A DNA stretch of 27,452 nt from Spirogloea muscicola (Eukaryota; Streptophyta; Zygnematophyceae; Spirogloeales; Spirogloeaceae): NCBI GenBank assembly GCA_009602725.1, contig WELB01000118.1, positions 96,128-123,579 on the forward strand, given 5' to 3'. A program made the translations under genes and the position numbers. The notes beneath the pieces are model-generated. The model made no database searches and was not told where the DNA came from. It saw only the letters and a program-made list of their open reading frames with translations. Shown one piece after another: positions 3,392 through 27,371 of the stretch. Position 1 is the stretch's first letter. Each line of letters starts with the position of its first letter.

Positions 3392-4655
3392 CTACATGGC
3401 AAAGCGGCGAGTCCAATCAAGGGCCATGCGGTCGTGTGCAGCTTGGTCTCTCAAGTAGAGCTCAGCAATGCTCTCATTCAATGCTTGATCTGCAATGCTT
3501 ACACAGCCACATCATTAAATCAGATCTACGCCACCCTCTTGACTGCCGTATGCAAAGTAACGCACAGTCCACCCAAAGCCAAGCTGGTGCTTACTGGCCT
3601 GGCTTGCTCTGGCTGTGCCCCAAGGCTACAGCTCAGATTTCCAGACCAAGCATGTCCTAACAACCGTTTCCTAGGCACCCTGTAGCATGTCATCTTCATG
3701 TCCACGAGCATGAGATGACAAGGGCAAACCCAGCAATAGATTCTAGGACAGTCAGGCACTCTACAGTATACGTTGGGCCGCTGTACAATTGGCACAGATA
3801 CTCAATTCAGCACTTTGCTATCTGAAGGTGCACTAGTGATGAAGAGGACATTGTAGGGGCTCAAGGGTTTTGAAAGCTCACGGGGATCTGGGCGATTCAA
3901 GAGTGCACAAATGGACACGAGTATCTTGGAGATGGTCAGCGCAGGGCTCCAGCTCGCACCAAGAACGTCCAACTGCACCTCCCCGTCACGACCCACATTG
4001 CAGTGGTATATCCTTGTGCAGAAGCGCACCTGGAAGCGGTGGGCCGGCGCTTGCGTAGAGCTGAGAGCATTATCATGATCCTCTGACAACGTCGTGGCCA
4101 CAGCTCGTCACGATCATCGAGCCGATGTCTCAATAGACAACCCATTTGTTGGTTGTCAATTAACTGCGATGTTCGTGGAGGTCTGTTTGGGCTGCTGTGG
4201 GCTGGGCTCACTGTTGGAGGATGGAACGGGTAGTCATTGGGGAAGACGATGTCGAGGAAGAAGATGCCGCCGTAGTAAGGCGACCCTGCAGGCACAGCGC
4301 CAGGAAGCAACGAGCTTCGCTTACGCAGCGGCGCAGCAAGGCGCGACACCCACAAACGCCACGCCAAGTTCTCGGATCAGGTCCACTGAAGCTCCACGTC
4401 TGAGTCATGGGGCGGACGACCACAGCTGTGAAGCGAAGCTGGCCTTAAGGCGACGTGGGATCGGCGCTCGCCTGGCGGCCCGACGATGGTGCAGACCCAC
4501 TCATAGAGCTTGTCGCCCTTGGGCCCCGCGGAGCAGTGCGCCGGCGGCTCCAGGCCGATCTCCGCCAGCTCCCGGTGGATGCGCTTCGCGGACGCCGACA
4601 GGGACGTTGCCGACGCCCGCGGCCGCGCCGCGCCGCCGCCTGCAGCGGCCGCCAT
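3392..4655 (-). CDS. UBE2E-like ubiquitin-conjugating E2 with Gln at the catalytic Cys position
   Basis: Four exons (4655-4472, 4285-4212, 4029-3882, 3489-3392) join in frame to 167 residues. Known for the family: E2 enzymes carry ubiquitin on a catalytic cysteine and pass it on with RING E3 ligases. Seen here: an Ala/Gly-rich N-terminus of about 20 residues, then the UBC fold, with [12 protein letters not shown] (helix 1), [36 protein letters not shown]-type strand 4 (HCN replacing HPN) and [11 protein letters not shown], ending [13 protein letters not shown]. The active-site segment of the family reads ICLDIL. Here it reads VQLDVL, with codon 105 CAG (3975-3973). The E3-contact motifs (K/R in helix 1, DYPF, WSPA) are kept. 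The start is the first ATG, in GCCATGG context. Intron 1 appears to be GC-AG. It is probably a catalytically dead, regulatory E2-like protein. Fold assignment is firm; the role is inference. Confidence 0.9.
3685..3716. repeat. Imperfect 12-13-bp hairpin in E2 intron 3
   Basis: TGTCATCTTCATG is followed by TCCACGAG and CATGAGATGACA. The arms are reverse complements except for one unpaired base. The element sits inside the last intron of the E2 gene (3881-3490). No function is evident. Confidence 0.6.
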
Positions 4656-4773
4656 GGCGCCTCTCCGAAGGCCCACAGCTGCTGCCTCCAAGCTGTAGCC
4701 TTTTGAGCTGTGGGTTGTAAAGTGGGAGGGAAAAAACCCTATCACGGTCCAAATCTATTGTTTTATCTGAATC

Positions 4774-5289
4774 ATGCCAGTACTCCAGAAGCGTGGCAGG
4801 CCTCACGTCAGGCGTCTGGATGTGGTGGCCACCCCCCGGAGTGGTGGGCCTCGTCTTCTCCTCGACGTCGTTCTCATCGACGCCTTCCAACCAGGGGCAC
4901 CCACACCGACTGTGCCAGGTTGGGCGACGCATCATGCGGAGAGGAGAGACACTATAACGACCACCCTCGGGGCGACCACTTCTTCCCATGCGCCATGGAC
5001 ATCTACGGCGGCTATGGAACGAAGTGGTCTGCCCTCCTCCATCGCCTGGCACTGCATGTTGATGCCCGCCGAACGTAGTCGGGCCGGTAGCTTAGGCCAT
5101 TCTAGCGTCCTGCAAGCCACCATTGCATGTTATAGGATGAGGTTATCATTGAGTCTGCAGCGCTCCCAAGCACTCGCGATTCACCAGCGTGCTGGTCGTG
5201 CATTAGCCCAGGCTAATGGCTTCCGTGGAGGTGGTTCGGCTCCTCAGTATAGCTTGTCAGATATGCATGTGCTTACTCGGGGATATTAG
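4774..5289 (+). mobile_element. Decayed 3' part of a LINE-like reverse-transcriptase ORF
   Basis: The frame runs from about 4774 to a TAG at 5287-5289. It begins with LDVVATPRSGGPRLLLDVVL, which matches the RVDLVASTPGGGARIIADVV segment of the fragment at 11770-12270. It ends with RMRLSLSLQRSQALAIHQRA and SLSDMHVLTRGY, close relatives of the same fragment's tail. The middle of the homology (FFPCAMDIYGGYGTKWSALL) is in another frame, so at least two frameshifts have accumulated. The layout (nuclease-like beta strands, then FVPLAV...GALG-type and helical segments) recalls the region after the RT domain in LINE-type elements with restriction-enzyme-like endonucleases. No RT core is present, so it is 5'-truncated. 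It begins about 120 bp upstream of the E2 start codon and may affect its promoter. Confidence 0.6.
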
Positions 5290-11769: not shown

Positions 11770-12270
11770 TCAGTAGTTACGAGTGAGGAGCCGCAGATCC
11801 GACAGACTAGCTGCCGGAAAATTATCCCCCTGCCGAAAGCCAGAGGCCGCAGCGAGAGCACGGCCAGCTCGCAGATGTAGAGCATGGGCCATGGACCTCT
11901 GGAGGGACACTGACAATCTCATCCAGTATACCTGAGCCCACGAGCCAGCTGCGTTGAAGTCAGCCGGTTCGCCGCGCCTGCGGGACACAGCACGCCGCGC
12001 AAGCCGGGCCAGCAGGTCGAGCCACTGGGACCCGAGAGCCCCGTGCACGTTCACCGCCAAGGGGACGAACTCATCTGTAGGCTGGTGGTCGGAGTGCTTG
12101 GCCGCCTTGCTGCGAGCGGCCTTCGCCGCAGCATGGCCTGCCCGCGAGGCAGAGAACCCCGGGTTGGAGCGGTCGACAACATCAGTGGTGACTACGTCGG
12201 CGATGATGCGCGCGCCACCGCCCGGCGTGGACGCCACCAGGTCGACACGGCGCGTGTGGAGTCCGACGTA
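11770..12270 (-). mobile_element. 3' part of a LINE-like ORF, frame intact, 5'-truncated
   Basis: Read on the minus strand the frame runs RRVDLVASTPGGGARIIADV, then AGHAAAKAARSKAAKH, EFVPLAVNVHGALGSQWLDL, YWMRLSVSLQRSMAHALHLR and SLSDLRLLTRNY, ending in TGA at 11770. The family resemblance is to the C-terminal domain after the reverse transcriptase in LINE-type ORFs, with a nuclease-like fold followed by helices. Catalytic residues cannot be placed securely. The open frame continues upstream to 12591 but becomes unlike protein there and crosses a foldback copy, so the element seems to begin near 12270. There is no frameshift, unlike its relative at 4774-5289, so this copy is younger or from another subfamily. 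Confidence 0.6.
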
Positions 12271-12370
12271 GTCACCACCGTCCGAAGATGGAGACTCTTT
12301 CCAGCAGAGGGAGAGCCACTTCCCTTCCAGTGGAAGGCGATGGCTGGGACTGGCCAGCCAGCCAGTCCAG

Positions 12371-14240
12371 TAATGGATGAACAAAAAGGTTTGGAGGGGT
12401 GAGCGGCACCCCGACGAGTTCCAAACCGCGCTGTCGTTCTGAAACGGCTCTGAAGGAATGGTCTGAAACGGCAGGAAGACACGCGAAAAAGGAGGGAATC
12501 TTTTTTCCCCACGACTTCTCCAAGTGGCAGGACGGCGCCACCGTTTGGAAGACCTGCGGCCGCCGTTTGAGAACGCGCCCACGAACGCCACGTGGAGCTT
12601 GTCCTGTCCTCATCCTGCCATGTGGCAGCTCACTGGTGACCGCAGCCTCGACATCCACCCCGGTTGACGCCTACCGCAGAAAACGACAAAAACCTGCGGT
12701 GGGCAGGTGATTCTTATTTTGTCCGGGCCCGCAAGTTTGTCGGTTCCACGGCCGCAGACGCATTTCCATCAAGGCGGTCAACGAGGCGCCCGGGGGCGGT
12801 CAACGGGGCCGGCCGGCCCCGTGACGCAAGTCCATTAAGCCCCTGACGCATTTCTATCGGCGCCGGCGGGCGGGGCGGGGCCCGGCCGGGCGCGACGTGG
12901 GCTGCCACCGACCGGCCGACCGGCCGAGTGGTGGCCCGCGGGCCGCCATGGCTGCAGAGATGGAAGCCACGGTGCGGCGTGGCGCAGCTGAGACGCCGCT
13001 TGAGTATCTCGATCGTTTTCCGTCTCCGCAGAACACCAGCAAGCACATCTGACGACGTACACTACCCACTATTGGAAGGCACCCCCACTAGAGGGCGATG
13101 GCTGCGATTAGCCAGCCCAAGGAAAGAACGAAGGAAGGCTGTGATCTCCATCTCTCGTTCCTGCTCTCCGGCCCCTCGGACCCCTTGTCCATTCCCCTTG
13201 GAACTTTCTCCTTTGGGCCGGCCTTTCACAGCTCTCACCCACCGACTTCGGAATGACCTTCTGTGAATTTTGATCTTTCTTGTCCTTATACAGCATTGTC
13301 ACCTCGTGCTGCTGCTTCTCTTTGGCTCTGCCAGCCACTCTTCTCTATGGGCTCTTGTGCTCACCCGTGGGTACTAATGTCATCTTAGGTACCTTAGATT
13401 AGGTCTCCGTAGTATGTAGCATTGTTTAGTCTGCACTCGACTCTGCCTGAACAATGTATTGGCTTGAATTGGCGTCCCTTTCAATTCATGCGCCCCGCGC
13501 GCCTTCTCTCTATGGGCGAGCACATTCTTTCTTGAGCAGCGACGTTCAGTATCATGGATACCGTGGCAACTCGTTAAGAAGAAAGAAAGAGCTGTCTTTA
13601 AGAGCTGTCTCATGGGGAGGGGTAGGGTCAAACCGGTTGCATCTCGGAGGCTGGGGCACGTAGTATGGTGGAGCCACTGCCGCACGCAGCTTCGCTGTGG
13701 ATTAACACAGGCGGCGGGCTCGAGAGCACGGCAATGGTGCCCCAGAGAGGGTGGCCGTCGCGCTCGGCTCGGGCCCGCTGTCCGCCGATGCGCAGCTGCA
13801 GCAGCATCTGCGCAGAGAAGCTCTCCCAGAAGGGGGCTCAGTCTTTGAAAGACCAGCACAATGTCAATGGATCTGGCCTGTAAAGACTGACAGAAGGTCC
13901 GAGGACGAAGGCAGCAACTCAAACGCATCAGAATGCAGCGAGGCAGAAATAGCTCTTGCAATGTATGGCAATGGCTGTGAAACGGCAGCTTTCTCTGAAG
14001 TCTTCCAGTGGAGGGCGATGGCTGTACTTGGTCAGCCCAGAAAGAGAATGAACACAGTCGAAGGGGCCAGAGGAGCGCTAACGCCAGCCCGAAAGAAGGG
14101 ACTAACGAAGGAACGAGCACGGGGGCGAAGCCAGAAGGCCGTTGAGCGACACGGGGGCGAGCTGGCGAGGTGGGTGAGAGGACGGGCGGGCGCCGCTGCC
14201 ACGAAGGCGCCGGCGGTCGCGGGAGCGCGCCTGGTCAACG
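12371..14240. other. Repeat-rich intergenic stretch
   Basis: No supported gene. It holds foldback copies, a GC-rich block (12780-12960) with several GGCC palindromes, and copy 2 of the 50-bp dispersed repeat. Long frames here are low in complexity or cross repeats. Confidence 0.45.
13465..13516 (+). repeat. About 50-bp dispersed repeat, copy 2
   Basis: GAATTGGCGTCCCTTTCAAT and the following CATGCGCCCCGCGCGCCTTC match 5342-5400 with a few substitutions and short indels. No LINE-like coding sequence adjoins this copy. Confidence 0.75.

Positions 14241-25968: not shown

Positions 25969-27371
<1,403 letters not shown>

Follow-up and report, generated by a model that had tools for sequence, protein, structure and literature searches.

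A UBE2E/COP10-group E2 protein with glutamine in place of the catalytic cysteine in the alga Spirogloea muscicola

The locus described here raises the question of what an E2-type protein does when glutamine occupies the position of its catalytic cysteine, and to which branch of the E2 family such a protein belongs. Its gene lies in a stretch of 27,452 nucleotides of Spirogloea muscicola DNA that was analysed as a whole (the window). A previous sequence-only reading held that E2s without the cysteine are found only in other branches of the family (UEV/MMS2, TSG101, AKTIP), a view contradicted by plant COP10, a published E2 variant that has no catalytic cysteine (PMC6761389). The best explanation of the gene, to which we assign a probability of about 0.7, is that it codes for a COP10-type E2 variant (a UBE2E-related pseudo-E2) that serves a CUL4-DDB1-DET1 ligase as a subunit without catalytic activity.

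Gene organization and active-site region

Splice search and translation defined a gene of four exons on the minus strand (4655-3392). Exon 1 (4472..4655) extends from the start codon to ...IVGPPG and encodes a short, low-complexity amino-terminus, after which the UBC fold begins. Exon 2 (4212..4285) carries Phe82 of the RING-contact loop, exon 3 (3882..4029) the active-site region, and exon 4 (3392..3489) Gln137, the carboxy-terminal part of the fold and the stop codon TAG. Intron 1 (4286..4471; 186 nt, GCGAGC...CTGCAG) is of the GC-AG type while intron 2 (4030..4211; 182 nt, GTGAGC...TTCCAG) and intron 3 (3490..3881; 392 nt, GTGAGC...TTGCAG) are GT-AG introns. The latter splits codon 136, the His codon directly preceding Gln137, between exons 3 and 4. 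Alternative junctions found within a few bases of introns 1 and 2 yield the same protein (five more within 4 nt in the case of intron 1), and those with GC-AG and GT-AG ends were picked. The spliced coding sequence encodes 167 residues and its sole stop is the terminal TAG, while the three frames of the unspliced region contain 13, 18, and 13 stops. The 167 residues are thus correctly assigned, even those of the distant last exon; the product deduced in the sequence-only reading has the same residues. The GC content of third codon positions is 0.756, compared to 0.64, 0.55, and 0.50 GC in the introns.

The fold is covered by Pfam UQ_con over residues 25-159 (E 3e-43). A PDB search gave 286 distinct sequences at E<=1e-5 (60 of them listed), a number that excludes a chance likeness to E2s, and the ten best matches are all UBE2E1-3. 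Alignment with human UBE2E2 is free of gaps from window residue 15 to 166 (offset 34) and places Gln105 opposite the catalytic Cys139. Codon 105 (3973..3975, minus strand), identified from the aligned column, is CAG and differs at all three bases from TGC and TGT. The glutamine reported previously at the catalytic position, its codon unlike that of cysteine at every base, and the conservation of the remaining fold were all confirmed. For a read error to have masked a Cys codon here, either three substitutions or a compensating set of two or more indels would have been required. Two sources of a restored cysteine were ruled out: C-to-U editing cannot convert CAG to a Cys codon, and a hidden intron finds no room in exon 3 because its alignment to UBE2E2 is gap-free through codon 105.

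A second position of the catalytic cleft is altered as well. The CES/D site is usually an acidic residue or Ser in active E2s, a pressure absent from UEVs and from other E2-fold proteins devoid of conjugating activity (PMC4604453). We assigned its position in UBE2D/E from our own alignment, in which Gln137 of the window protein faces Asp171 of UBE2E2 and the next proline is replaced by Ala. COP10 (sequence entered by hand, here and below) keeps Ser-Pro at this site and the window protein, with Gln-Ala, is therefore altered further. Two features of a catalytic UBE2E are thereby missing, the cysteine (Gln105) and the acidic or Ser CES/D residue (Gln137). Asn97 of the YHCN motif is retained, as are Phe82, Pro115, and Ala116, which we take to be RING-contact residues by the role of Phe62, Pro95, and Ala96 in UBE2D; the E3-contact motifs are conserved, as had been stated before. 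Judged from these residues, the protein looks able to dock on E3s but unable to carry ubiquitin.

Pfam names two of the 19 neighbouring ORFs in the window, both as Arf. Two exons of an Arf-family GTPase gene lie at 26099-26422 and 26598-26921 (minus strand), and ARL1 proteins were the best PDB matches when one of these exons was searched. Directly upstream from the E2 gene, on the opposite strand, an ORF at 4771-5289 (+) has a diverged copy at 11770-12609 (-), with 36% identity over 166 aligned columns (E 7e-14) and the common ending MRLS-SLQRS-A-A-H-RAGRALA-A-GFR...LTR-Y. The 11770-12609 copy has no Pfam match, and the pair is perhaps a repeated or mobile element. A short inverted repeat with arms TTGCTTGTGTGGAACA and TGTTCCACACAAGCAA was spotted by eye at 1615-1652. 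Rfam gave no match in the window at gathering scores and a tRNA scan found no tRNA.

Related genes in other genomes

No relative was found in viral contigs scanned with the window protein (0 of 93 stretches) or with alignment A1 (0 of 25), and tblastn against a phage collection gave no match. A first scan of genome contigs was equally negative (0 relatives in 591). The second scan yielded four among 132, of which one is an intronless Pseudomonas gene and one a eukaryotic UBE2D gene from a pond MAG; the other two are E2s of archaeal MAGs. L002:2163-2686 is an intron-bearing UBE2D gene with the cysteine; its contig was assigned to a Verrucomicrobiaceae MAG, and that bin therefore probably contains eukaryotic contamination.

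The intronless gene is a UBE2D/Ubc4-like gene of P. brassicae (L001:7842-8432, plus strand), flanked by bacterial ORFs that presumably code for a Lon-like protease and a quinoprotein-dehydrogenase-like protein, as named from their translations. Matches occur in five of the 149 genomes of this Pseudomonas genus, the query's own included. Four of them (three of 148 besides the query's own) carry a total of five full-length, intronless UBE2D-like copies, those additional to L001 (L006, L007, L008, and L010) matching at about 1498-1935; the fifth genome has a partial, weak match in which the cysteine is present. The catalytic cysteine is missing from all five full-length copies, where A, G, G, T, and G are found, and these are 43-54% identical to the window protein. 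They may form a family of pseudo-E2s that bacteria acquired by horizontal transfer.

Placement within the E2 family

Five trees were built, from 15 rows, 11 rows with masking, 14 rows, 11 rows unmasked, and 14 rows with masking. Masking, applied as a control, removed the active-site and CES/D loops, and the 14-row set includes four more bacterial UBE2D-like rows. The rows of COP10, UBE2D3, Ubc4, AtUBC8, UBE2N, UBE2A, UBE2L3, and UBE2V2 were entered by hand rather than fetched, those of UBE2E2 and UBE2E3 were copied from search output, and the L rows, such as L001 and L008, came from fetched loci. COP10 is represented by the single Arabidopsis row. The 60 best PDB matches to this hand-entered sequence include no COP10 chain. 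Support is given as pairs of values, the first being the bootstrap percentage, and the mark set by the tree program is 95/80.

The group formed by the window protein, COP10, UBE2E2, and UBE2E3 exceeds this mark in every tree, with 100/99 (15 rows), 99/99 (11 masked), 98/94 (14 rows), 100/99 (11 unmasked), and 97/93 (14 masked). Within it the window protein pairs with COP10 in all five trees but never at the mark: support is 90/85 with 15 rows, 93/86 with 14, and 81/77 with 11, and loop masking lowers the last two values to 89/84 and 62/30, respectively. Membership of the window protein in the UBE2E/COP10 group, rather than in UBE2D, is therefore established at the sequence level, while orthology to COP10 itself is likely. 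Grouping of the window protein with UBE2E to the exclusion of COP10 was not rejected in any of three tests (p-AU 0.40, 0.23, and 0.24). With loops masked, its union with the UBE2D-type rows (p-AU 0.017) or with the P. brassicae row (2e-5) was rejected. Union with three bacterial rows had a p-AU of 0.11 on all columns and was rejected after masking (0.038), and union with the bacterial row L008 alone was not rejected (0.083).

Identity of the window protein is highest to the UBE2E1/2/3 proteins (61.7% to UBE2E2 over 149 columns), with which it also shares the GPKGD and YHCN motifs and a fold without gaps; it differs from them by Gln105 and Gln137 in place of Cys139 and Asp171 of UBE2E2. Identity to COP10 is 56.0%. 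UBE2D and yeast Ubc4 (hand-entered rows) belong to the same E2 superclade and have the SPALTI E3-contact motif in common with the window protein, but are only 51.7% and 48.6% identical to it and the UBE2D-type clade is rejected. MMS2/UBE2V proteins also lack the catalytic cysteine; the hand-entered UBE2V2 row, however, is distant, on a long branch, and shorter at its carboxy-terminus, a part that the window protein keeps (exon 4). Neither by placement nor by length is the window protein a UEV of this kind. It has two attributes of the COP10 type, a UBC fold of the UBE2E/UBC4-5 kind and absence of the catalytic cysteine, and it resembles COP10 also in its retained RING-contact residues. The two proteins differ at both altered sites, the active site and CES/D, where COP10 has Ser and the window protein has Gln. 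A study that combined maize proteins with those of yeast and Arabidopsis in one tree reports a third group of UEVs, nested within the UBC4/5 subfamily (PMC4659669). We read this group as COP10, though the source passage is not explicit on the point. In our trees COP10 stands beside UBE2E.

A candidate subunit of a DET1 ligase

In plants COP10 has long been known as an inactive partner of ubiquitin ligases in light signalling. It joins DDB1, DET1, and DDA1 on CUL4 and also binds the RING of COP1 (PMC8024647). According to a review, Arabidopsis COP10 was reported to enhance the activity of true E2s (PMC6761389). The active enzymes UBE2E1-3, unlike UBE2D3, were pulled down by human DET1, which holds the E2 at its backside; five UBE2E2 residues, T68, R88, R124, R126, and T201, contact it (PMC12808801). 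The window protein has G34, V54, C90, R92, and M167 at these positions, the fifth placed by extending the alignment, so that one of the five is kept (R126, Arg92 in the window). The corresponding residues are N, I, K, R, and K in COP10 and A, Q, T, R, and M in the hand-entered UBE2D3. The tally of COP10 is thus the same as that of the window protein, and the arginine, common to all, does not discriminate between them. Because COP10 binds DET1 without these contacts, their count neither favours nor excludes binding of DET1 by the window protein.

The human system gives evidence in both directions. COP1 and substrate yielded no ubiquitination with UBE2E2, whether wild-type or inactive, whereas the full DET1-COP1 complex with UBE2E2 as the added E2 supported limited ubiquitination of the substrate; chains are extended by UBE2D3, and the authors suggest that their start is due to UBE2E2 (PMC12808801). 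In that complex catalysis by the E2 is accordingly the ancestral condition. We infer that the window protein is a COP10 orthologue that binds DET1. It keeps the whole UBC fold and the E3-contact surface but would be unable to link to ubiquitin as a thioester. Judged by homology, its most likely place is in a CUL4-DDB1-DET1(-DDA1) ligase, with DET1 gripping its backside, where it would assist a catalytically active E2 of the UBE2D/UBC4-5 kind in acting on the substrates of the ligase. Both chain start and chain extension would then be left to other E2s. The proposal made from the sequence alone, of a non-catalytic decoy or allosteric RING partner, stands as to the loss of catalysis (both the cysteine and the CES/D residue are gone), while a free decoy is less grounded than a subunit of CUL4-DDB1-DET1.

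A different history would be a separate inactivation, unrelated to that of COP10, in an E2 of the UBE2E type, yielding a lineage-specific pseudo-E2 that serves as decoy or RING modulator. We regard it as unlikely, although the identity greater to UBE2E2 than to COP10, the unrejected grouping with UBE2E alone, the Gln where COP10 has Ser, and the absence of four among the five human DET1 contacts are all consistent with it. The pairing with COP10 in all five trees, four of them at 81-93%, argues against it, and so does the plant branch, which already holds a known Cys-less protein. That the gene is a recently inactivated E2 (a pseudogene) or an unexpressed copy is quite improbable: the GC donor of intron 1 would fit such a state, but the four exons are intact, without internal stop or frameshift, and code for a product that retains the identity to human UBE2E2 given above.

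Smaller still is the probability that the glutamine stems from an assembly or sequencing error, or that a splice form restores the cysteine. The locus is known from one sequence, but the error would have to combine several changes in a single codon, the aligned exon has no space for an intron, and the CES/D residue, a second catalytic site, is changed too. We give the least credence to a pseudo-E2 that belongs to the UBE2D branch or resembles those of Pseudomonas. Three of the Cys-less bacterial copies share G-E-V/I-x-L-D/E at the active site, and union of the window protein with these three on all columns, or with L008 alone, was not rejected. However, the window gene has spliceosomal introns, the best trees of the 14-row set favour UBE2E/COP10 (98/94 and 97/93), and masking of the loops led to rejection for the three copies, the UBE2D-type set, and L001.

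The window protein is then of a known kind, a COP10-like pseudo-E2, its unusual detail being Gln at a position where COP10 has Ser. No study of an algal COP10 was found among the titles and abstracts of the literature searched. In Chlamydomonas, photoprotection genes are under the control of DET1 and DDB1 (PMC6761389, PMC12445801); in the model proposed for this alga, CUL4-DDB1-DET1 and COP1/SPA1 restrain the CrCO/NF-Y factors and hence these genes (PMC12445801). The presence in an alga of a COP10-like E2 devoid of the catalytic cysteine would imply that catalysis by the DET1-bound E2 was lost before land plants, or repeatedly. Should the loss have been independent of COP10, glutamine would fill the catalytic cleft and DET1/COP1-like ligases would contain an E2 that is permanently uncharged; the DET1-bound E2 would have lost catalysis more than once, and evolution would have held on to its structural role and not to its chemistry. 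A protein of the type found in the window makes it testable how far the DET1-bound E2 subunit is structural.
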